Below are positions 33,495-53,854 of a stretch of DNA of 64,000 nucleotides, piece after piece. Numbering within the stretch: position 1 is the stretch's first letter; every line of letters starts with the position of its first letter. Source of the stretch: Pseudarthrobacter siccitolerans (lineage in GTDB: Bacteria; Actinomycetota; Actinomycetes; Actinomycetales; Micrococcaceae); the NCBI RefSeq assembly GCF_030823375.1, contig NZ_JAUSXB010000001.1, forward strand, positions 1,612,001 to 1,676,000. The letters run 5' to 3'. The translations under genes and the position numbers were made by a program. The notes below the pieces were generated by a model that was given only the letters and a program-made list of their open reading frames with translations, had not been told where the DNA came from and did no database searches.

Positions 33495-35474
33495 TCATAT
33501 CGCGGTTGTTGTCTGGTGATGCTGCGGCAAAGCTTTTGCCTCGGGGCGCTGCAGGCCTGCGGTTTCATAGATTTCTTGTTCATCGAGGGTTTCTTTTTCC
33601 AGGAGTCGTTGGGCAAGGTTGTCGAGGCGCCAGCGGTTTTCCTGCAGGAGTGCCAGGGCGCGCTGGTGGCATTGCTCCACCAGGGTCCGTACTTCCTCGG
33701 CGACGACGTCCAGCATGCCTTCGGAGACACCGGCAGCGCGCGGGTCCCCTTCTTCGGGGAGGACCTGGACCGGCCCGATGCGTTTTGACATGCCCCACCG
33801 GCCAACCATCATCCGGGCAAGGTGGGTGCTGGTCTGCAGGTCGCTTTCGGCGCCGGTGGTGACGACTCCGAAGACGAGGTCTTCGGCCGCCATGCCACCC
33901 AGTGCACCGACGATCCTGCCCTTGAGATAGTTTTCGTCGTACCCGTACCGGTCTGTATCGGGTGTGGAAAGGGTGACGCCGAGGGCACGGCCGCGCGGGA
34001 TGATGGAGATTTTCCGGACTGGATCGGCGCCGGGCTCGAGCATTCCCAGAAGTGCGTGCCCGGACTCGTGGTAGGCGGTGCGCCTGCGTTCCTCCGGAGG
34101 CATAACCACGTTCCTGACGGTGCCCAGCTGGACCTTTTCCAGCGCGTCAAGCAGGTCCCGCTGCGTGACTGCAGGGTGGGAGCGTTTGACGGCCAGCAAT
34201 GCTGCCTCGTTGACGAGGTTGGCCAGTTCGGCGCCGGTCATGCCTGGGGTGATGCGGCTGATGGCATCAAGGTCCATATCAGCGGCGAGCTTGATGTTTC
34301 CGGCGTGGACGCGCAGGATCTGGGCACGGCCTGCCTGATCGGGGGCGTGGACGGTGATGGAGCGGTCGAACCGGCCCGGGCGCAGCAGGGCCGGGTCGAG
34401 GACGTCGGGCCGGTTTGTGGCCGCCAGAACAACGATTCCTTCGGACGAGGAGAATCCGTCCATTTCGGTGAGGATCTGGTTCAGGGTTTGTTCGCGTTCA
34501 TCGTGTCCGCCGACGGCAAGGGAGCCGCTTCTCTTGCGCCCGATAGCGTCGATCTCATCGATGAAAATGATTGAAGGGGCAGCGCTGCGGGCGGCCTGGA
34601 AGAGCTCACGGACCCGGCTGGCCCCGACCCCGACGACCATTTCAACGAACTCGGAGGAACTGGCGTGGAAGAAAGGTACCCCGGCTTCACCGGCAGTGGC
34701 CCGGGCCAGCAAGGTTTTCCCGGTCCCCGGAGGGCCGCTGAGAAGGACGCCTTTGGGTGGTTTGGCGCCGATCGCCTGGTACCTCTTGGGGTCTTTAAGG
34801 AAGTCAACGACTTCAGAGATCTCGGCCTCGACCTCATCAATGCCGGCAACGTCCTGGAACGATACCCGGACCTTGTCGGGGTCCACGGGCTGAAACTTTT
34901 TCCCGGCCCCGAAGCCGCCCATTCCGAGCATGCCCGACTGCTTCTTGAACAGCCAAAGGTAAAAGAGGACCAGGAGCGCGATGGGGGCCATTGAGATCAG
35001 CAGGTTTGTCAGGACCCCGCGTTCCTCAACGAGCGGGGTGGCCCGGACCGTGACGTCGTTCTGCTCGAGTTCGCTCAGCAGGTTGTCATCAGCAAAGAGG
35101 GGCCGCTCAGTGGTGAACTGGTTGTAGTTCCTGCCGTCGCTGTCGGGCAGGGGCTTTCCGCTGCGTAGGCTACCCTCGATGCTCTGGCCCTTTGCGAAGA
35201 TCTCCGCAATGTTGTTCTCCCGCACCTGAGCCTTGAATTCGGTGTAAGGGACGGATTGTGGCTGGTTCTGCTGGTCCTGAACCGTCAGGGCAGCGAACAC
35301 GGCCACGTACAGGGCGGCAATCAGTAGAGTCCGCCACCACCGCCGCGATTTTCCGGGCTCGGGCCGGGGCGCCGGCAGGCCCTCCGTCCGCCACGGCACC
35401 TTGGGCCGGGAACCAGAGGGGGACGCGGGACCGTTCTCGCCCAGCTTGTTTTGACGTGCGGCAGGATCGTTCAC
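33495..35474 (-). CDS. ftsH: FtsH-type ATP-dependent zinc metalloprotease
   Basis: 659 residues. Membrane helices lie near 47-66 and 154-176 with an extracytoplasmic domain between them. The AAA module has Walker A GPPGTGKT at 247-254, Walker B IIFIDE at 302-307 and the second region of homology with [17 protein letters not shown]. The protease site is HESGH at 469-473. It degrades misfolded and regulatory membrane proteins. GTG 35474 has GGAGG five to nine bases upstream. The housekeeping ftsH normally sits beside hpt-tilS and folE genes; here the neighbours are lsr2, DUF4193 and hsp20, so this is probably an accessory copy. Confidence 0.94.
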
Positions 35475-43750: not shown

Positions 43751-43885
43751 CTACCGGTACCCGTCCACAATGGCGGCAGCGATCATACCGAACCGTCCGC
43801 ACAACTAATGTCGCGGCGTCCGCAGTTGCGGCTGCCCTGCGTCCTCTGCTCGGGCGCCTGCATTCTGATCCGCCGGATGTGGCAT
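43751..43885 (-). pseudogene. Internally deleted remnant of the MinD/ParA-like ATPase gene
   Basis: The first 27 codons (MPHPADQNAGARAEDAGQPQ) match the start of the intact ATPase gene at 49256 and stop early. A few bases later the DNA encodes IAAAIVDGYR and a stop, the exact last residues of the intact protein. About 1.2 kb, the whole ATPase core, has been deleted, leaving both ends in order. Confidence 0.8.
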
Positions 43886-43968
43886 GTCTGTCTCCCGGAC
43901 GGTTCTGCGCCACTCGTTCAATCAGTGTGTCTAGGGGGTCAGCAGGAAGCGCTGCCCGCTGCCCACCG

Positions 43969-44088
43969 TCAGTGGTGGATGAGGGCGGCCGATACCACAG
44001 TTGCCGTGAGCATCAGGAGAACGGCAAGGATCGTGTAGCCCACCCACTTGGGACGGCTTTTGTGGGGGTTGATATCGACATACGGCAT
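43969..44088 (-). CDS. 39-residue membrane micropeptide (left cassette)
   Basis: Starts MPYVDINPHKSRPKWVGY, then one hydrophobic helix of about 20 residues to the end. The copy at 49341-49460 is 39 residues too and shares MPYVDINPHK-x-RPKW plus helix character, with third-base changes, so the frame appears protein-selected. Basic residues before the helix predict an N-in, C-out topology. It begins two bases after the stop of the 52-residue peptide gene. Family not recognised. Confidence 0.68.
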   Translation of the reverse strand: MPYVDINPHKSRPKWVGYTILAVLLMLTATVVSAALIHH

Positions 44089-44090
44089 GG

Positions 44091-44249
44091 TCAGCGCTGG
44101 TTACCTCTGTGTGCGGTCCGGACGGGGATCCCGAGTGTGCGGCGCTTGAGCCGCAGCATCTGGTACAGGACAACGAAGGGAACCAGCAAAGTGCCCAGTA
44201 GAGCGCACAACGCCAGGGCGTAGTCAGACACGGTCACAGTACTCTCCAT
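44091..44249 (-). CDS. 52-residue membrane micropeptide (left cassette)
   Basis: Starts MESTVTVSDYALALCALLG, with a helix over about 9-31 and a basic C-terminal tail (RLKRRTLGIPVRTAHRGNQR). The copy at 49463-49621 keeps the length, helix, LKRR and RGN-x-R end. The topology should be N-out, C-in, opposite to the neighbouring 39-residue peptide. The ATG follows AAGGGAA at a long distance. It is first in the cassette, downstream of a promoter conserved in both copies. Confidence 0.68.
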   Translation of the reverse strand: MESTVTVSDYALALCALLGTLLVPFVVLYQMLRLKRRTLGIPVRTAHRGNQR

Positions 44250-44276
44250 CGGTCACAAGTTCCCTTACTGCCCACC

Positions 44277-44305
44277 ACCTAAGCATGTGACAACCCGATT
44301 GACAA
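44277..44305 (-). promoter_or_regulatory. Conserved cassette promoter, left copy
   Basis: TTGTCA (44305-44300) and TTAGGT (44282-44277) are spaced by 17 bases on the minus strand, 27 bases before the ATG. The right cassette has the same two hexamers with the same spacing, while the spacer differs. Confidence 0.6.
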
Positions 44306-44323
44306 GTCACGTCAATCGGGTTG
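44291..44323. promoter_or_regulatory. Perfect 13-bp inverted repeat over the cassette -35 region
   Basis: CAACCCGATTGAC and GTCAATCGGGTTG flank a seven-base spacer. The right arm in the other cassette is only partly conserved. It overlaps the -35 box, so it could be an operator; it could also end a rightward transcript. Confidence 0.5.
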
Positions 44324-44359
44324 CTACAACAGAGCAAACATCTTCAGCGGAGGGGACCC

Positions 44360-44488
44360 TTGCATAACGACGTTACGCTGAGTTTTTTCGGGTGGGTAGC
44401 AGTTGTTTCAGTGATAGCTTCGGGCGGTTTGCTGAACAGAGCCGTAGTCGGCGGTGGCGTGCCCATGCCACCCATAGCTCTCCACTAG
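44360..44488 (+). CDS. Possible 42-residue membrane micropeptide
   Basis: A TTG at 44360 preceded by GGAGGGG (five bases away) opens a 42-codon frame with one hydrophobic stretch (LSFFGWVAVVSVIASGGLL). It ends just before the IS3 element. There is no second copy to support it. Confidence 0.3.
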   Translation: MHNDVTLSFFGWVAVVSVIASGGLLNRAVVGGGVPMPPIALH

Positions 44489-44529
44489 CTCAGGGTTCGT
44501 GGGGTTACCCGCAAATCGTGGACAGTTGA

Positions 44530-45414
44530 TCAGGCGGCTTGTGCCGGCTGAAGTTTATTGCTGGTGAGGAATTGTTCGTGTTCCACCGGCGTGATGTAAC
44601 CCAGGGCTGAGTGAAGCCGGGAGCGGTTGTAGAACTCCTCGATCCAGCGTCCTGTTTCCCGGATCGCGTCCTGCCTGTTTGCCCACCGGCGCCGGTCGTA
44701 AAACTCGGTTTTCAGGGTCGACCAGAAGGACTCCTGCATCGCGTTGTCCCAGCACACGCCGGTCCGCCCGACGGACTGCCTGATGCCCAGTCCAGAGCAG
44801 ACGTCGTTGAGCTGGGCGGAGGTGTACTGGGTGCCGCGGTCTGCATGGAACACGACCCCGGCCGGGCCGCCGCCGCGCAGGACGTAGGCCATGCGCAGCG
44901 CCCGCTCCACCAGGCTGGTGGTTTGGGTGGAGTCCATCGCCCACCCAATCACACGCCGGGAGCAGGCATCCCTGACAGCACACAAATACACCCACCCTTC
45001 ACCGGTGCGCAGGTACGTAATGTCCGAGATCCAGACAGCATCCAAAGCCCCGGTGTCCCACTTTCTGGCCACCAGATCAGGGATCGAATGCACCCGCGCC
45101 TCACCGATCGGGGCTACCGGCCGGAACCGCCGCGGCGAGATCCCTTCCAGGCCTTGCCGGCGCATCGAGGCGGCCACGGTCTTCCGGTCAACGCCGGTCC
45201 CGTTCCTGGCCAACGCGGCCTGCACCCTGGGCGCCCCGTAGATCCCGGTCGAATCCCGGTGCACCCGCCGGACCTTCGCATCCAGTTGCGCCCGCAGCAC
45301 GGTCCGCTCCGACTCCTCGGAGCTTCGTCGGCGCCAGGCGTAGAACCCGGACCGGGACACACGCAAAAGCCGGGCCATCCGCTGGACCGGGTAGTTAGCC
45401 TTCTCGGCCTCCAT
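44530..45414 (-). CDS. IS3-family transposase OrfB (DDE integrase)
   Basis: 294 residues. An N-terminal HTH_21-like region (SRSGFYAWRRR) precedes the rve integrase core. Catalytic residues are the first Asp in WISDITYLRTGEGW near 130, the second in VFHADRGTQYTS near 191 and the Glu in NAMQESFWSTLKTEF near 227. The gene overlaps orfA at TGATG. In this family a fusion OrfAB is usually made by frameshifting. The gene is full length. Confidence 0.93.
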   Translation of the reverse strand: MEAEKANYPVQRMARLLRVSRSGFYAWRRRSSEESERTVLRAQLDAKVRRVHRDSTGIYGAPRVQAALARNGTGVDRKTVAASMRRQGLEGISPRRFRPVAPIGEARVHSIPDLVARKWDTGALDAVWISDITYLRTGEGWVYLCAVRDACSRRVIGWAMDSTQTTSLVERALRMAYVLRGGGPAGVVFHADRGTQYTSAQLNDVCSGLGIRQSVGRTGVCWDNAMQESFWSTLKTEFYDRRRWANRQDAIRETGRWIEEFYNRSRLHSALGYITPVEHEQFLTSNKLQPAQAA

Positions 45415-45725
45415 CAGCTCGAAGCATTCCGATTCTGCTGCTTGGAAGCGAAGAAGGCTGCGGCTTTTCCCAGGAACTCGTTATCCATCCGCAGCTGCGC
45501 GTTCTCCCTGCGCAAACGCTCCAGCTCAGACTTCTCCGTCTCAGCCGCAGCGAACTCCTCGGGAGCCTCCAGGCGGGCCCGTTCCTGAGCCACCCACCGG
45601 CCCAGCAACTGCTCACCCAGACCCAGCTCCCGGGCCACCGGCGCGACCGGCCGGCCCGTATCGATGACAAGGCGCGCAGCCTCCCGCCGATACTCGGGAG
45701 TGAATTTACGTCGTGTCGTGCTCAC
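45414..45725 (-). CDS. IS3-family OrfA (HTH protein)
   Basis: 103 residues with an N-terminal helix-turn-helix (KFTPEYRREAARLVIDTGRP, then VAPVARELGLGEQLLGRW) and a C-terminal leucine-zipper coiled coil (EKSELERLRRENAQLRMDNE). It recognises the element ends. A GGGAAAAG run near the end is a weak candidate slip site for the OrfAB fusion. Confidence 0.92.
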   Translation of the reverse strand: MSTTRRKFTPEYRREAARLVIDTGRPVAPVARELGLGEQLLGRWVAQERARLEAPEEFAAAETEKSELERLRRENAQLRMDNEFLGKAAAFFASKQQNRNASS

Positions 45726-45924
45726 AAGAACACCTTCCCGCAGAATCCCAGGATCCCGCTACTTCAGGTGTCCACCAACAGAGGTTAACCCCATTCGCAT
45801 ATTCGGGGCCGAAACGACGAAAACCCGCACCGGCGCCCGCCTATCCGCGTTGCCCTCGGCAACTAAGGGGTAATACGGTAACCAATGGCATGCACTGTCT
45901 CTACTCACGGGGGTCTTTTGGAGT

Positions 45925-46135
45925 TGTCCCGGAGCCGCTTGCGGAGTCTGAGCTTGGCGACGTCCAGCCAGATGATGGGCAGCGAGCAACTGGCCTCTCT
46001 GGCTACGAAGCTGGAGGCCGAACTGAGCGACGATGTCACGATGGCGACGTGTCCACTGCGCTGCCGCGCCTGCTCCAGATAGCGTCTCCTGCCCCTGCTC
46101 AAGGAAGCCTTCAGGTTTGCACAGGATCAGCGAAA
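45925..46135 (+). pseudogene. Decayed HPt-domain gene fragment
   Basis: In one frame the DNA encodes LATSSQMMGSEQLASLATKL, which looks like the helix following the phospho-His of HPt domains. Continuation of the domain (GDVSTALPRLLQ, then LLPLLKEAFRFAQD) needs two further frame changes. It lies directly upstream of an HPt-like gene, so it may be a broken paralogue. Confidence 0.45.
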
Positions 46136-46175
46136 AACAGCCCATTCCCAGGATCTTGTCTCCTAGCCTTAATTT

Positions 46176-46622
46176 ATGACAAGTTCCAACACCCCTCGGC
46201 CCCCTGTCCCAATGCTCCCTGCCGCACAGGTCCGGGCCTTCCACAGCCGGAGAATGGCCGTGAGCCCCGCTGGCCATGACATTCCGATACTGGACTCGGC
46301 GATCCTTGATGAACTTGAGGAAGAACTTCCCGATCACGGACTCATGCGCCGGTTCGCGGCAGACTATGCCGCACTCTGGAAGCATCGCCTCAAACGCCTT
46401 GCCGCAGCCATCGAAGACCAGGACAGGGATGCTGCCCTGGATGCGGCAATCAGCGTCAAAGTTTCATCCGCAATGATTGGCGGGCTGCGGGTGGCACGAA
46501 TCGCGGAACTTCTGGAGCAAGCCATCCGTGAAGACATTCTGGACAACGGCCGAACGACGCTGACCAGTATTGCGGAAGCCGGCGGCGCCACCGTGAAAGA
46601 AATCGAACTCCGCTACTCATGA
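46176..46622 (+). CDS. HPt-like protein lacking the phospho-acceptor histidine
   Basis: 148 residues. After a Pro-rich start, residues 38-120 form a four-helix HPt-like domain: LDSAILDELEEELPDHGLMRRF, then AAISVKVSSAMIGGLRVARIAELLE. In true HPt proteins the latter reads close to AHSLKGSS, with His as phosphate carrier; here that position is Ile92. It may bind a partner without carrying phosphate, or be a diverging copy. It converges on an OmpR-type regulator gene 32 bases away. Confidence 0.65.
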   Translation: MTSSNTPRPPVPMLPAAQVRAFHSRRMAVSPAGHDIPILDSAILDELEEELPDHGLMRRFAADYAALWKHRLKRLAAAIEDQDRDAALDAAISVKVSSAMIGGLRVARIAELLEQAIREDILDNGRTTLTSIAEAGGATVKEIELRYS

Positions 46623-46654
46623 GTGAGCGGCGTATGCGCAATGCCCGCTCTCAG

Positions 46655-47410
46655 TTAGGCGTCGCCTGAGCGCTTCCTGACCAGGCAGTAGCCCACGCCG
46701 CGGACCGTCTGCAGCCAACGCGGAGATTGAGGATCGTCCCGGAGCTTGCGCCGGAGATTACCAACGTGCACCTCCACTGCGCGTTCATCTGCCTCGCTGA
46801 TGTACCCTCCGCCTGCGTTGAATCCTCCGCGGAGAGTCTCGACGAGTTGTCTTCGGGAACGGACAGCTCCGGCGCTCCGAAGCAGTTCATGAAGGAGATC
46901 AAATTCGCTGCGCGTCAGGTCCAGCCCCTCTCCCCCCACCTTGACGGTCCGCATCCTGTGGTCAAGAGTCAATCCGTTGTGCCGGAGCACCGACTCCTCG
47001 CGCCCGGACTCACTCGAAGGAGGCTGTGGCATAGATACCGGCGCCGCCGGGGACAGCTGCGGCCGGGGCCTGCGCAGCATCGCCGCAATCCTTGCCCTCA
47101 TCTCGCGCGGACGAAAAGGCTTCGTGACGTAGTCATCCGCTCCCGCCTGAAGCGCGGTCAAGACGTCGGACTCAGCCGTTCGCCCGGTCAGCATGAGGAC
47201 GTAGGCGTCACTGAACTGCCGGATCCGCCGCAAAGCCTCAAGCCCATCAATGTCCGGCATCCCCACGTCCAAGGTGACCACGCAGGGCTGCAGGTCCCGG
47301 ACCATCTCCACCCCCGAGCGTCCGTCATCCGCTGTGTATACTTCGAAGCCGGCCTGCCCGAGCACTCCCGCAAGAAGATTTCGCATATCCGCATCATCTT
47401 CGACAATCAC
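46655..47410 (-). CDS. OmpR-family response regulator
   Basis: 251 residues. The receiver domain (1-110) has the acidic pair in VEDDAD, phospho-acceptor Asp48 in VVTLDVGMPD, Thr75 and Lys97 in DDYVTKPF. A flexible Pro-rich linker leads to a winged-helix DNA-binding domain (about 150-245) ending LQTVRGVGYCLV. All key residues are present. No sensor kinase gene adjoins, so it is an orphan regulator here. The start is probably GTG 47410, since a stop codon lies five codons upstream. Confidence 0.88.
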   Translation of the reverse strand: MIVEDDADMRNLLAGVLGQAGFEVYTADDGRSGVEMVRDLQPCVVTLDVGMPDIDGLEALRRIRQFSDAYVLMLTGRTAESDVLTALQAGADDYVTKPFRPREMRARIAAMLRRPRPQLSPAAPVSMPQPPSSESGREESVLRHNGLTLDHRMRTVKVGGEGLDLTRSEFDLLHELLRSAGAVRSRRQLVETLRGGFNAGGGYISEADERAVEVHVGNLRRKLRDDPQSPRWLQTVRGVGYCLVRKRSGDA

Positions 47411-47640
47411 CGCCCGCCCATATCACTCATAGCTGCCCCCTCAGCTGCTAGGTCTCCCCGAACCGGCCCAGCGCCGTCCAGGAAACCCGGCCTGTGGCCA
47501 ATTTACCCGGAACGTGGCAGAAATACCCCCTTGGGGGTTCGCCTTTGGCCAGTCTCTTCCTCGAAAGGGACCTGCCCCTGAGGTCTTAGTAGGATTTCTG
47601 TCGAGCAGCTGCCGCCATGCCGGAGGTAAGAAATGCCCTG

Positions 47641-47730
47641 AGAGGCGGCGGCCCGGACGTGATCCTTCTTGTCGCGCCGTGGGCAAACTTAGATCTGCGA
47701 CGGGTCATCTTTGACCAGCTGCAGAATTGG
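47641..47730 (+). pseudogene. Fragment of an Lrp gene (C-terminal domain)
   Basis: The DNA encodes DVILLVAPWANLDLRRVIFD followed by QLQ. The intact Lrp has DVILLVRAVDNIDLRRVIFD and QLQ. Nothing of the rest of the gene is present. It is a second relic of the same Lrp family in the window. Confidence 0.75.
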
Positions 47731-47909
47731 CTGCTTGCTCGGCCACAACTCTGGTCAAGATCGGCTCAGGCCAAGGAGCAACCCAAGAAGAGTTAGATTT
47801 CGACGGCGGAAGGCAGCACCAGTGTCACGCCTTCTCCAAAGCGCGAGGGACGCCCCTGCGAAATGAGACACTTAGGCCCAAGCCGCCTGCACGCCTCGCG
47901 GCCGGAGCT

Positions 47910-49256
47910 TTAGCGGTACCCGTCCACAATCGCCGCTGCGATCTCCCTGTAAGCACGTCGGGTCTCAGGCTTCAGCACGTCGAGAGTAACCAGATCGCCA
48001 TCTGCGACACCACGGTCGTGCGGGACGGCGATCAGCTCCCTGCAGATGCCGGAGAGGTGCTCCTCGATGGCGTCCTTGTCCACGCGGGAGGAGACTTCGT
48101 CCTTATCAGTGATCACCACAATGGCGTTCCGGGCCAGGTCCTCGTACCCATGGCCGGCCAGCCAGTGCAGGGTGCTGCGGGCACGCTTGGCACCGCTCAC
48201 GGCATAGCCGGCGGCGATGACGAGATTGTCAGCGGACTGCAGGATTCCGCTCATGGCGTTGTGCGTGACGCCGGTGCCGCAGTCAGTCAGCGCGACCGAG
48301 TAGTAGCTGGAGATGAGCTTGCGGATCCGCAGGTACTCGGCGGCCGTCAGGGAGTCCGAGACCTCCGGGTCCTGCTCTCCCGCGATCAGGTGGAGGCGGC
48401 CGGCGTGGTGCATGTAGCGGGCCAGTCCGGTGAGGGAGTCAATGGAGTCGATGTTGCGGAGCAGGTCCGTGATGGTGCGCGGGCTGGACTGCTGGTAGAT
48501 TCCCTCCCCCAAGGCGCGTTCCACCAGGTCACCGGAATCTGGGTTGGCGTCGATCGCGCACGGCGCGTCACCTCGGTACTCCGCCAGGGTCAGGCCGACC
48601 CCCACCGTGGTGGAGGTCTTGCCGATCCCGCCCTTGAGGCTCAGGATCGCGGTGTTGTAACTGCCCTGCAGTTGCCGGGAAATGCGGCGCCCCAGTTCTT
48701 CTTCCTGGCGTTGCTTCGCGCCGGGGCCCATATTCCAGGCCCCGCCGGTCATGTTGTAGATCGCTCCGCGGAAACCGCCCACAGGGCGCGGCTTCTGCTC
48801 TTTCACAAACAGCCCGGGCGAGCTGATGAAGTCAGGCATAGGGCTTTCCGCAATGGCGTCGGCAACGGTGGGCCGGCTGCGGCGGAACGTGGGAGTTTCG
48901 GAGGGAGCGTCAGACCGCGGCGGCGCGGCTTCAGTGTCAGCGCCGGCTGGCACGGAGGGACCGGTGTCCTGCCAGGCAGCCTGCGCGGATGCCGGCGACC
49001 GGGTGGGGGCCGGAACGCGGATTGCTGGCTTTGCCTTATCGGCTGCGGCGGCCGCCTCAGCCCAGGAAGTCCTTCTCGTCACGGGCTGGCCGGCGTCGGG
49101 CTGACTCGAAGTGTTAGGTGTTACAGCTGGCATGGTTCCTGTCCGGGCATCCGACAGCTCGTCGTCGGCGCGACGAAGGTCACGGCGTCGGCGCCGCTGC
49201 GGCTGCCCTGCATCCTCTGCATGAGCGCGTGCGTTCTGATCCGCCGGATCGGGCAT
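47910..49256 (-). CDS. MinD/ParA-like ATPase with long disordered N-terminus (right cassette)
   Basis: 448 residues. Residues 1-155 are Pro/Ala/Arg-rich and disordered. The deviant Walker A is LKGGIGKTST at 207-216 and the switch region AIDANPDSGDLVERALGEG follows. This resembles the MinD/EspI-type ATPases of Actinobacteria rather than plasmid ParA with a ParB partner; no parB or type VII secretion gene is nearby. ATG 49256 has GGGGGA upstream. It is last in a cassette with two membrane micropeptides, 84 bases downstream. MinD proteins work by ATP-dependent membrane or partner binding, so the peptides are candidate membrane partners. Confidence 0.85.
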   Translation of the reverse strand: MPDPADQNARAHAEDAGQPQRRRRRDLRRADDELSDARTGTMPAVTPNTSSQPDAGQPVTRRTSWAEAAAAADKAKPAIRVPAPTRSPASAQAAWQDTGPSVPAGADTEAAPPRSDAPSETPTFRRSRPTVADAIAESPMPDFISSPGLFVKEQKPRPVGGFRGAIYNMTGGAWNMGPGAKQRQEEELGRRISRQLQGSYNTAILSLKGGIGKTSTTVGVGLTLAEYRGDAPCAIDANPDSGDLVERALGEGIYQQSSPRTITDLLRNIDSIDSLTGLARYMHHAGRLHLIAGEQDPEVSDSLTAAEYLRIRKLISSYYSVALTDCGTGVTHNAMSGILQSADNLVIAAGYAVSGAKRARSTLHWLAGHGYEDLARNAIVVITDKDEVSSRVDKDAIEEHLSGICRELIAVPHDRGVADGDLVTLDVLKPETRRAYREIAAAIVDGYR

Positions 49257-49340
49257 ATATGTCCCCCAGGACGTTTCGGCAAACTGTCTTGCTGCGCTAG
49301 TTTAATCAGTAAGTCTAGGGGCTTGGACAGACAAAACCGT

Positions 49341-49460
49341 TCAGAAGCGCGCGAGCGCGGCTCCCACCACTGCCGCGGTGAGGACTAGGAGGATGGCCAA
49401 GACGGCGTAGCCCTGCCACTTGGGGCGGCCTTTGTGGGGATTGATATCGACGTATGGCAT
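49341..49460 (-). CDS. 39-residue membrane micropeptide (right cassette)
   Basis: Starts MPYVDINPHKGRPKWQGY, followed by one helix (LAILLVLTAAVVGAALA). It matches the left-cassette peptide at 26 or so of 39 residues, with the first ten identical. It starts two bases after the stop of the 52-residue peptide. Predicted N-in, C-out. Confidence 0.7.
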   Translation of the reverse strand: MPYVDINPHKGRPKWQGYAVLAILLVLTAAVVGAALARF

Positions 49461-49462
49461 GG

Positions 49463-49621
49463 CTATCGGCGGTTACCTCGTGGTGCGACGGGGGCGGCGA
49501 TCCGGACGGCCCGGCGCTTAAGCCAGAGCACTTGGTGCAGGACAAGGACGGGAATCAACAGCGTGGCCAAAAGCACGCACAGCGAAAATGCATACTCAGA
49601 AATAGCCACAATAGCCTCCAT
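49463..49621 (-). CDS. 52-residue membrane micropeptide (right cassette)
   Basis: Starts MEAIVAISEYAFSLCVLLA; helix about 9-31, then LWLKRRAVRIAAPV and the RGNRR end. Same length as the left copy, with conservative changes spread over the protein. It opens the cassette downstream of the shared promoter. Confidence 0.7.
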   Translation of the reverse strand: MEAIVAISEYAFSLCVLLATLLIPVLVLHQVLWLKRRAVRIAAPVAPRGNRR

Positions 49622-49646
49622 CGGTCAGGTGATCCCGTTCACTCCG

Positions 49647-49675
49647 ACCTAACCACGTGACCAGTGCAATGACAA
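49647..49675 (-). promoter_or_regulatory. Conserved cassette promoter, right copy
   Basis: TTGTCA (49675-49670) and TTAGGT (49652-49647) with 17-base spacing, 25 bases before the ATG. It is identical in hexamers and spacing to the left copy. Confidence 0.6.
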
Positions 49676-49707: not shown

Positions 49708-49824
49708 CTACCTTCGTAATGCGATCAGTACGACACCGACGGTCACGACGGCCAACGTAATGAGTAGAAAATAGCAAAGTACCCTTATTTTTCGCTGCCT
49801 CAGCTCCCTGCGCGAGTACCGCAT
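49708..49824 (-). CDS. Possible 38-residue membrane micropeptide
   Basis: From ATG 49824, with GGAGG ten bases upstream, the frame encodes MRYSRRELRQRKIRV, then one helix (LCYFLLITLAVVTVGVVLIA) and a basic end. An ATG nine codons earlier is possible. It lies upstream of the right cassette on the same strand. The strongly basic start predicts N-in topology. No second copy was found. Confidence 0.42.
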   Translation of the reverse strand: MRYSRRELRQRKIRVLCYFLLITLAVVTVGVVLIALRR

Positions 49825-49851
49825 GTCGTATGTGCCTCCATACCTACCCAT

Positions 49852-50563: not shown

Positions 50564-51580
50564 TTGGCTCGTTTAGCATGGGTGGATTCTGCCCGGGGCA
50601 TAGCGATAACGCTCGTGGTCCTGTTACACACTTCGGGCTGGCTCACCGAGGCTGGGTTGGGCATTCCCTTCTGGGAAACATTCAATGCGGCATTTTCAAC
50701 GCTTCGAATGCCACTGTTTTTCATGCTCGCGGGGCTATTCGCTGCAAAGTGGGTTGCACACTCATGGGTAAATCTCTGGACAGAAAAGCTCTCGCTGCTT
50801 TACTGGATCTTCCTCATCTGGTCTGGCCTCGGAGCCGTGTTCGCGGTTCTTAGCTTGGGCATCAACGGCGGCCAATTTGAGGTAGTGAAGACCCTGGGGG
50901 CACTTGGACTAAGCCTGATCCGACCGCGGTTCGAAGTGTGGTTCATCTGGGCACTCGCATTGTTCTTCATAACTGCAAAACTGTCTAAACGCGCTACCTT
51001 TCTTCCACAAGCCTTGGTGGCGGGAGCTCTGTCCATAGCGATCTCATCTGGTTACACAACGAGCAATATTGGATGGAATGGAGCGACACAGTATTATATT
51101 TTCTTCCTTGCAGGGCTGCACCTGCGAGGCCAGATAATTGAGTTTGCGAATCGACTAACGCCCGTCAACTGCCTCGCCCTGGTCTTAGCGTGGAGCCCTG
51201 GCGCACTATGGCTCGCCACTGGGTCCCCGGCCGGGGCAATACCTGGGGTGTTGTTCCTAGGGACAGTTTTTGGAATGATTGCCGGCTTGTCCTTTAGCAA
51301 ACTGCTTATTCCCGTAACCCCGTTGCTGCAACTCGGCACGAAAACTTTGCCGGTCTATGTTCTGCATACACCTATCGCGATATTGGCCTCCCTCGCTTTC
51401 GCACAGGGCTTCATGGAATGGGCGCCTTTGTGGCTGCGCGCCGTAATGCCCATCGCGGTTGCAGCCGCAGCCATATTCTGCTCTCTAGGAATCTACTCCC
51501 TTGGGGCAAAGTCTGTATTATTTCGCGCACCGCGATGGTTTGTGATCCAGGGCACGCGACTCTTCTCGCGGGCTGACTAA
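50564..51580 (+). CDS. Acyltransferase-3 family membrane protein
   Basis: 338 residues with about ten helices. The family start WVDSARGIAITLVVLLHTSG includes the conserved Arg-Gly and the catalytic-type His. RMPLFFMLAGLF follows. These enzymes acylate sugars of exopolysaccharide, O-antigen or peptidoglycan at the membrane. The probable start is TTG 50564 after GGGGGT. It stands apart at the left of EPS locus II and may decorate its polymer. Confidence 0.82.
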   Translation: MARLAWVDSARGIAITLVVLLHTSGWLTEAGLGIPFWETFNAAFSTLRMPLFFMLAGLFAAKWVAHSWVNLWTEKLSLLYWIFLIWSGLGAVFAVLSLGINGGQFEVVKTLGALGLSLIRPRFEVWFIWALALFFITAKLSKRATFLPQALVAGALSIAISSGYTTSNIGWNGATQYYIFFLAGLHLRGQIIEFANRLTPVNCLALVLAWSPGALWLATGSPAGAIPGVLFLGTVFGMIAGLSFSKLLIPVTPLLQLGTKTLPVYVLHTPIAILASLAFAQGFMEWAPLWLRAVMPIAVAAAAIFCSLGIYSLGAKSVLFRAPRWFVIQGTRLFSRAD

Positions 51581-52253: not shown

Positions 52254-52280
52254 TTGATGCCGTGGAAACGTCGCTATAAT
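52254..52280 (+). promoter_or_regulatory. Candidate promoter of the second BY-kinase gene
   Basis: A perfect TATAAT at 52275-52280 has TTGATG 15 bases upstream, a shorter gap than ideal. The leader to the TTG start would be about 75 bases. Confidence 0.45.
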
Positions 52281-52360
52281 TGCAGAGACTGCACGGACAT
52301 GAGCGTTCTGGTGGCGTGCCACTCGGCGGGTCCCAGCAAAAAACAACAGGGGGCCCAACG

Positions 52361-53854
52361 TTGGATCTGCATGACTACCTGAGAATTCTGAGGCGCCACT
52401 GGCTTTTGATCGCTGCGGCAACCTTCGCGGGCCTACTCGTCGGAGGTGCTAGTTCTATCATCACCCGGCCCACATACACGGCGGACACGCAATTATTTGT
52501 GGCGACCCAGAGTTCCGGTTCAGTCACTGAACTCCAACAAGGCAACACGTTTAGTCAGGCGCGCGTGCAATCTTATGTGAAAACTGTGACAACCCCTGTG
52601 GTTCTGCAGCCCGCGATCGACAGTTTGGGGCTAGATGTCACAGCAGAATCACTAGCGGAACGAGTCACGGCGACAACCGACATCAATACTGTCCTTATTA
52701 AGATTTCCGTCTCCGATAGCTCTCCTGCTCAGGCTGCTGCAATCGCCCAAGCCGTCTCTAACAGCTTGATCAAGACAGTAGACACACTTGAGACCCCCCG
52801 AACGGGTGGCACCTCCCCGGTCAGCCTGTCAGTGATCGACCCTGCCGACGCTCCGCTAGCGCCGTCTGCCCCGAATACCAAACTCAATTTATTCGCGGGA
52901 CTGTGCATCGGTGCAGCCCTTGGTGTGGGCGGCTCCGTATTACGCACGAAGTTGGACAACCGCATCAGGGGCGAAAGCGATTTGCGTCACCTAACCGATG
53001 CGCCGCTGCTGGGCGGCATAACTTTCGATCAAGACGCCGTCAAGAAGCCTCTGCTGACTCAAACCGCGCCCCAAAGTCCCCGTGCGGAGTCGTTTCGGCA
53101 GCTTCGGACTAATTTGCAGTTTGCAAACGTCACCGGTGAAGCACGGACGGTTCTCCTTACTTCTTCGCTGCCTGGTGAGGGCAAAAGCACAACAGCTACA
53201 AACCTTGCGATTGCCTTGGCTCAAGCTGGACAGACGGTTTGTTTGGTTGATGCTGACCTCCGGCGCCCGATGGTCCACGAATACTTAGGCCTAGACAAAA
53301 GTGTTGGTCTAACAACTGCTCTCGTTGGCGACATGGACATTAACGAGTTGTTGCAGCCTTGGGGTGACGATGACTTGTTCGTCCTGGTATCCGGTCAGAT
53401 TCCACCTAATCCCAGCGAACTGTTGGGATCCCAAGCGATGCGCGCAGTAATTGAAAGACTTGAGTCTACGTTCGACACAGTGGTGATTGATGCCCCACCC
53501 TTGCTACCAGTCACTGACGCCGCCGTACTGTCGCAGCACGTGGGTGGTGTCGTCGTCGTCGTTGGATCCAGCAAGCTCAAGCATCAAGATCTGCAGAAGT
53601 CCCTAAGTGCCCTCAGCATGGTTGGCGCCACTTTGTTGGGCGTGGTCTTGAATCGTCTTCCCGCCAAAGGCCCCGACGCCTACGCCTACAGCTATTACAG
53701 CAGCGAACCAGGTTCTCGTGACATGGAGGGTTTAAGGTCCGACAGGCACGCCAGCAGCCGCCAGGCCGTCCCTGTACCTGAAACGTTGGTCCCGCGTGAA
53801 GAATACGCTCGCCCCGCGAATGTGTATCCGTCCCTAAAGTTCAGGAATGAGTAA
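52361..53854 (+). CDS. Wzz/BY-kinase polysaccharide co-polymerase with Tyr cluster
   Basis: 497 residues. Wzz helices lie near 15-36 and 178-196. The kinase has Walker A SSLPGEGKST at 268-277, Walker A' CLVDADLRRP at 294-303 and Walker B VVIDAPP at 374-380. The C-terminus holds the expected Tyr cluster at 441-446 (YAYSYY). Phosphorylation of this tail controls chain length and export. The TTG at 52361 has GGGGG seven bases upstream and gives the usual family start (DLHDYLRILRRHW). It ends about 10 bases from an IS21 remnant, so its last residues may have been altered by that insertion. Confidence 0.9.
   Translation: MDLHDYLRILRRHWLLIAAATFAGLLVGGASSIITRPTYTADTQLFVATQSSGSVTELQQGNTFSQARVQSYVKTVTTPVVLQPAIDSLGLDVTAESLAERVTATTDINTVLIKISVSDSSPAQAAAIAQAVSNSLIKTVDTLETPRTGGTSPVSLSVIDPADAPLAPSAPNTKLNLFAGLCIGAALGVGGSVLRTKLDNRIRGESDLRHLTDAPLLGGITFDQDAVKKPLLTQTAPQSPRAESFRQLRTNLQFANVTGEARTVLLTSSLPGEGKSTTATNLAIALAQAGQTVCLVDADLRRPMVHEYLGLDKSVGLTTALVGDMDINELLQPWGDDDLFVLVSGQIPPNPSELLGSQAMRAVIERLESTFDTVVIDAPPLLPVTDAAVLSQHVGGVVVVVGSSKLKHQDLQKSLSALSMVGATLLGVVLNRLPAKGPDAYAYSYYSSEPGSRDMEGLRSDRHASSRQAVPVPETLVPREEYARPANVYPSLKFRNE

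Follow-up and report, generated by a model that had tools for sequence, protein, structure and literature searches.

Results

Locus architecture

The window analysed here is a 64,000-nucleotide stretch of Pseudarthrobacter siccitolerans DNA, located within the 4.43-Mb contig of a two-contig genome. It carries two copies of a gene pair encoding the one-helix membrane micropeptides p52 and p39, followed by the gene for a MinD/ParA-like ATPase. A first-pass annotation had placed two peptide open reading frames (ORFs) in each copy, in the same order and on the same strand, with a 448-residue ATPase intact on the right only. Both the ORF list and the sequence confirm this arrangement and its coordinates. 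The peptide genes are separated by 2 nt in left and right copies alike, and the left ATPase gene is reduced to two end fragments with a frameshift, the 5' codons running directly into the 3' codons with the middle gone. A further micropeptide gene, p47 (49851-49708), absent from the earlier account, lies upstream of the right pair, the minus-strand order there being p47, p52, p39, ATPase. The features are as follows.

49708..49851, minus strand: p47, third one-helix micropeptide, 47 aa, basic N-tail (predicted N-in); from the ORF list, a 17-row alignment and the ratio of non-synonymous to synonymous substitution rates (dN/dS)
49648..49675, minus strand: promoter-like TTGTCA-N16-TTAGGT ahead of right p52; consensus match to sequence only
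49463..49621, minus strand: right p52, one-helix, acidic N- and basic C-terminus (predicted C-in); likely start GTG at 49609 (48 aa)
49341..49460, minus strand: right p39, one-helix, near-invariant N-tail PYVDINPHKxRPKW (predicted N-in)
49257..49325, minus strand: ATPase-gene leader, conserved and non-coding (CCTAGACTTACTG ... GGGGGACA), with promoter-like TAGACT; from 33 aligned intergenic regions
47910..49256, minus strand: MinD/ParA-like ATPase, 448 aa, KGGIGKT Walker A
44277..44305, minus strand: promoter-like element ahead of left p52, overlapping palindrome TTGACGTGACTTGTCAA (44297-44315)
44091..44249, minus strand: left p52; from the ORF list, alignment and dN/dS
43969..44088, minus strand: left p39; from the ORF list, alignment and dN/dS
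43800..43885, minus strand: left ATPase remnant, 5' piece (first ~30 codons, frameshifted)
43751..43783, minus strand: left ATPase remnant, 3' piece (last ~10 codons and stop)

Conservation of the p52-p39 pair

Sequence comparison indicates that the p52-p39 pair is a conserved unit. A one-helix ORF of opposite charge polarity lies directly upstream of p39 on the same strand in 101 of 127 distinct p39 contexts, with a gap of 2 nt in 64; these contexts include close relatives and hence are not independent. When random sites were put through the same upstream-ORF test, 14 of 3000 passed. At L152, L154 and L159 an upstream opposite-polarity ORF can be seen by eye, below the threshold of the test. 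A search of titles and abstract openings found no publication on these peptides, within partial coverage that took in few subscription journals and could pass over a mention by motif only; p52-p39 is thus apparently a conserved pair of membrane micropeptides not previously described.

The peptides look like real genes under purifying selection, as judged from their substitution patterns. Between the window copies, dN/dS (Nei-Gojobori) is 0.26 for p39 (0.222/0.868) and 0.41 for p52 (0.297/0.733). Median values across the genus, calculated with our own Nei-Gojobori script over pairs with a proportion of synonymous differences (pS) of 0.05-0.6, are 0.23 for p39 (2224 pairs), 0.25 for the 33-codon core of p52 (375 pairs) and 0.40 for p47 (32 pairs). 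These ratios are well below 1, while the p39 block shifted by one base gives 1.12 (171 pairs), on which grounds we reject the idea that the peptides are chance ORFs. Sixteen columns of p39 are invariant among 26 sequences, nine of them within residues 1-15, and p47 is conserved in its 17-row alignment. For p52, a GGAG is conserved right before a GTG at codon 5 and the ATG is missing in several relatives; a true length of 48 aa instead of 52 is therefore likelier.

The opposite topology first proposed for the two peptides agrees with their charge polarity. Counting matches of 30-70 aa only, the positive-inside charge bias is N>C in 38/38 p39 and 23/23 p47 sequences and C>N in 37/37 p52 sequences, and p52 should therefore lie antiparallel to p39 and p47. 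The p39 and p47 hidden Markov models match each other's sequences, probably reflecting shared helix composition, and we do not claim homology. Comparison of the peptides with Pfam and NCBIfam gave nothing above cut-off, the sub-threshold scores including DUF4044 (14.9 of 21.8), VPAMP_CTERM (19.4 of 32), UbiA (15.1 of 34.2) and DUF5345 (17.8 of 27).

Distribution

Within 198 sampled genus-group genomes, the p39 family was found in 127 (E 1e-3) and the ATPase in 179 (E 1e-15). All 79 named p39 loci come from records titled Arthrobacter, Pseudarthrobacter or Paenarthrobacter, for which we use the label Arthrobacter sensu lato. In the wider family, 15 of 245 genomes matched p39 (E 1e-3), comprising ten of the same genus, one of another genus (g18) and four weak partial matches (g32); the order-level sample yielded 5 of 198, all of the same genus. 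Hence, apart from g18, no strong p39 match beyond the genus group was found in the family and order samples, and in the samples searched the pair is limited to Arthrobacter sensu lato plus a single further genus of this family. In the g18 genome (L132, G214), p47-, p52- and p39-like ORFs occur in the same order on a contig separate from the ATPase, flanked by what are presumably flagellar rod genes and a sortase-like gene; g18 is deemed close to Arthrobacter from shared gene order alone. Some p39 contigs are small (71-74 kb). Plasmid carriage was dropped as an explanation, as the right p39 had no match in 72,556 plasmid records.

Facultative linkage to the ATPase gene

To quantify adjacency, 61 ATPases from 60 fetched 20-kb loci were scored, leaving out the window. 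p39 lies <400 nt upstream in 33 and farther away in 4, with no sound p39 in 24; the p39-ATPase spacing is 83-144 nt. Adjacency is hence conserved across genomes. On the ATPase tree it is clustered and falls on well separated branches, requiring ~9-10 changes, a count possibly one too high because the window ATPase was scored p39-less though adjacent. One 20-kb locus (L045, G064) holds two intact ATPases, each behind p39, together with a third copy that is broken.

At the genome level, 110 genomes have both ATPase and p39, 54 the ATPase only, 7 p39 only and 27 neither (Fisher odds ratio 7.9, p 7e-7). Here a strong ATPase is one with E <1e-100, p39 was taken from 139 rows among the matches listed, ten genomes with weak or partial p39 only (nine above 1e-10, plus G152) were scored p39-less, and kinship was ignored. 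A strong p39 is therefore lacking in 54 of 164 strong-ATPase genomes, which speaks against a dedicated partnership and, together with the 7 p39 genomes lacking the ATPase, rules out an obligatory one. The p39 N-tail is nearly unchanged in the six (L143-L148) of these 7 genomes whose loci were read. At six loci of relatives belonging to other genera of the family, the ~1 kb upstream of the ATPase showed no such peptide. Furthermore, the gene order metallo-beta-lactamase (MBL)-fold gene, ATPase, major facilitator superfamily (MFS) gene is also seen without peptides, by eye in g18 too. The earlier proposal that the peptides are the membrane partner of the ATPase thus gains from adjacency, co-presence and dN/dS, and loses its exclusivity: the peptides are a possible partner, not a required one.

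The two gene sets have separate leaders. TAGA[CA]T occurs at -90 to -45 of the ATPase start in all 37 loci that have p39 within the stretch and in 19 of the 21 others, and the ATPase leader is strongly conserved with or without peptides. The former set takes in every ATPase start for which some p39 was scored, including the window and the 4 loci with p39 >400 nt away, and the latter includes loci with a broken p39 (L044, L096) or with p52 or p47 only (L068, L079); ATPases whose alignment stops short of the start were omitted, the two sets together making 58 regions. The pair has its own promoter-like element, TTGNCA-N16-18-TNNNNT, in 26/37 upstream regions. Five leaders were folded to look for a structured RNA in the interval separating p39 from the ATPase gene (z 0.12, -0.69, 0.29, 0.59 and -1.62); nothing convincing emerged, and we therefore call the conserved ATPase leader promoter-like. 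Given the separate leaders, peptides and ATPase would form two neighbouring units that commonly, though not invariably, accompany each other.

The ATPase

The ATPase is modelled with a MinD/ParA (SIMIBI) fold. It scores 26.2 bits against PF01656 (cut-off 25.4), and its Walker A motif KGGIGKT, of the deviant type, is invariant in 18 sequences. It falls far below the NCBIfam MinD equivalogs (TIGR01968, 19.2 of 212.9 bits; TIGR01969, 22.9 of 201.75 bits), and hence differs from MinD and ParA (Soj) proper. MinD attaches to the membrane by an amphipathic C-terminal helix. In a fold model of moderate quality (predicted local distance difference test, pLDDT, 76), the last ATPase residue (309) aligns to E. 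coli MinD residue 251, where the chain stops; the ATPase thus seems to be without the extension in which the MinD membrane helix sits. A first model (pLDDT 44) was kept out of the fold searches. In contrast to MinD and ParA, the protein bears an N-terminus of ~150 aa with very low predicted structure, in line with the disorder originally suggested, and this region contains short conserved motifs despite the predicted lack of structure. None of the MinC, MinE and ParB families was detected among 28 window ORFs scanned, nor was any conjugation family.

By sequence, the ATPase is related to conjugation-plasmid ATPases. The MinD/ParA proteins of the Clavibacter conjugative plasmids pCI2 and pCM2_1106 show 53-57% identity over the matched 299-359 residues and have the same C-terminus, whereas they possess a short N-terminal domain that differs from the N-terminus of the Arthrobacter protein. 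The Clavibacter genes sit with those for an SCO6880-family protein, an ATP-binding protein, a C40 peptidase, a TraM-recognition protein and a MobF relaxase; the Arthrobacter gene, unlike these, is chromosomal and outside a conjugation operon. A distant ATPase paralogue (27%) lies at 34068-35195 of a 71-kb contig (L002, G000 contig C2), adjoining genes for a peptidase-like and a small two-helix protein in surroundings that we take to be conjugation-like. Relatives in phages are distant (27-29%) and limited to 3 of 50,697 phage records. EspI-like ATPases are associated with ESX (type VII) secretion; a search for the type VII core protein EccB gave no match in this genome, and none in 14 control genomes either. 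Our literature search, of partial coverage, found no description of the role of this ATPase.

Small partners of related proteins offer a further comparison. In the BcsR-BcsQ system of cellulose secretion, linked to cyclic di-GMP (c-di-GMP), a MinD-like ATPase operates with a short partner. The ATPase reaches 12.1 of 157.85 bits for BcsQ (TIGR03371), and BcsR is soluble, whereas the peptides here are predicted to span the membrane. KdpF, CydX and AcrZ, bitopic small membrane regulators, share the size and single helix; the present peptides differ in their conserved antiparallel pairing and the near-invariant PYVDINPHKxRPKW tail, with no family match above cut-off.

Other genomic settings of the peptides

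The peptides also occur away from the ATPase. At eight loci (L143-L150), six of which belong to genomes lacking a strong ATPase match, p39 stands alone after an exopolysaccharide-type locus, the neighbours of which we take to be undecaprenyl-phosphate sugar transferase, UDP-glucose dehydrogenase, DUF4012-like and VanZ-like genes. A second type of pair is found at 12 orphan-pair loci (L151-L162), 8 of which have response-regulator, histidine phosphotransfer (Hpt) or EAL-type genes within ~6 kb. A Pfam scan of 98 of the 108 genes listed around these 12 loci assigned 6 response regulators and 5 EAL proteins, with PAS and GGDEF also present. Among the matches listed, 18 of 150 Hpt places have a p39 less than 10 kb away, compared with 0.7 expected at random. 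Around ATPases with linked peptides, EAL (4), PAS (4) and response-regulator (3) domains were seen in a random sample of 118 of 300 neighbouring genes; none of the three appears among the first 25 families listed for the peptide-less side (110 of 233 genes, likewise sampled at random).

Origin of the two copies and neighbouring genes

The first-pass annotation spoke of a duplicated cassette, a description that is not borne out. Left and right pairs share 72% DNA identity over 284 nt, whereas the left pair (296-nt query) matches the pair of another species at 88% identity over 287 nt (L183 and L098, same figure) and pairs of further species at 85%. The right pair is closest to yet another species (L038, 80%), from a set different from that of the left pair. 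Tandem or local duplication is thereby ruled out; the copies are homologues from different lineages, and the left pair was therefore probably acquired from elsewhere.

An insertion element with two ORFs (294 and 103 aa; 44530-45725, minus strand), presumably IS3-like, adjoins the left cassette and may have contributed to the arrival of that cassette or to the deletion within its ATPase gene. The palindrome upstream of left p52 (TTGACGTGACTTGTCAATC, 44297-44315, minus strand) is operator-like, and the 19-mer is unique in the genome at ≤3 mismatches. Between the two copies lie an Hpt-like gene (46176-46622, plus strand; 22.1 bits, cut-off 24.6) and a gene for a response regulator of the OmpR type (46655-47410, minus strand), a pairing that recurs near orphan p39 loci. 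Near the right copy are an acyltransferase (50564-51580, plus strand) and a Wzz-BY-kinase-like polysaccharide co-polymerase (52280-53854, plus strand), and glycosyltransferases flank the region on both sides.

Discussion

The data are best fit by a portable antiparallel micropeptide pair; its pairing, selection, polarity and facultative linkage were computed, and from these we infer a docking step. The locus would comprise two neighbouring transcription units, one for the peptide pair (often a trio) and one for the ATPase. Bitopic p52, whose basic C-tail would be cytoplasmic, and bitopic p39, whose near-invariant N-tail would face the cytoplasm too, would lie antiparallel in the membrane and may assemble into a small hetero-oligomer, both tails then giving soluble proteins of the envelope or of signalling a place to dock. 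The ATPase would be one such client in the main lineage, where the pair would recruit it to the membrane and ATP would switch it; in other settings, pairs of this kind could serve different clients encoded near phosphorelay and EAL genes or an exopolysaccharide locus. We favour, albeit tentatively, this reading of a portable two-peptide dock for which the ATPase is one client, and a facultative one. Its more general form, in which pairs of the same kind act within one genus group as plug-in docks that bring different cytoplasmic switches to the membrane, one lineage using a MinD/ParA-type ATPase and another a phosphorelay/c-di-GMP module, we regard as unlikely. Several points weigh against the favoured reading. 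A p52-like partner was sought upstream of the exopolysaccharide-type p39 loci and none was found, so the pair is not obligatory, and the polysaccharide-type neighbours differ between species. The linkage to signalling genes may reflect a shared insertion hot spot, the docking role is drawn solely from predicted topology and conservation, and the counts include related genomes, with kinship ignored.

Alternatively, the peptides could be a dedicated membrane receptor of the ATPase, akin to a minimal Min or partition system. Such a receptor would fit the conserved gene order and close spacing ahead of the ATPase gene (33/61), the co-presence in genomes (odds ratio 7.9) and an ATPase that shows no hint of a membrane helix at its C-terminus. 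It is harder to reconcile with the 54/164 ATPase genomes that lack a strong p39 and the 7 that have p39 without the ATPase, with a p39 tail kept nearly the same in six genomes devoid of a strong ATPase, with an ATPase that owns its leader, and with the six peptide-free upstream regions in other genera of the family; we consider it quite unlikely. Somewhat unlikely, in our estimate, is that no functional link exists at all, the ATPase being vertically inherited between MBL-fold and MFS genes and the peptides, with an envelope or signalling enzyme as client, having settled in an insertion-prone interval. That the MBL-ATPase-MFS order persists without peptides (by eye also in g18), that the leaders are separate and that the peptides occur at unrelated places too all point this way, while the regular same-strand placement just upstream (33/61, at 83-144 nt) and adjacency on well separated branches of the ATPase tree weigh against it.

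Finally, the peptides might be the toxic membrane peptides of a mobile type I toxin-antitoxin or stress module, as their size, single helix, occurrence at several loci and the insertion element beside the left copy, presumably of the IS3 type, would allow. The conserved part of p39 is however a polar tail and not the helix alone, and sets of two or three distinct peptides with fixed polarity have been retained side by side, which makes a toxin very improbable. An Rfam scan, which did not extend to antisense RNA, gave a single hit, below threshold (23 of 42.5 bits) and within the ATPase gene.

Peptides of ~40 residues often escape annotation, and few have a conserved partner. The hosts are culturable soil bacteria, so deletion and pull-down experiments should be feasible. 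Docking of the ParA-type ATPase would make the pair a minimal membrane receptor, built of two peptides, for ATPases of this class; docking of several clients would make it a modest case of scaffolding by modules at the membrane.

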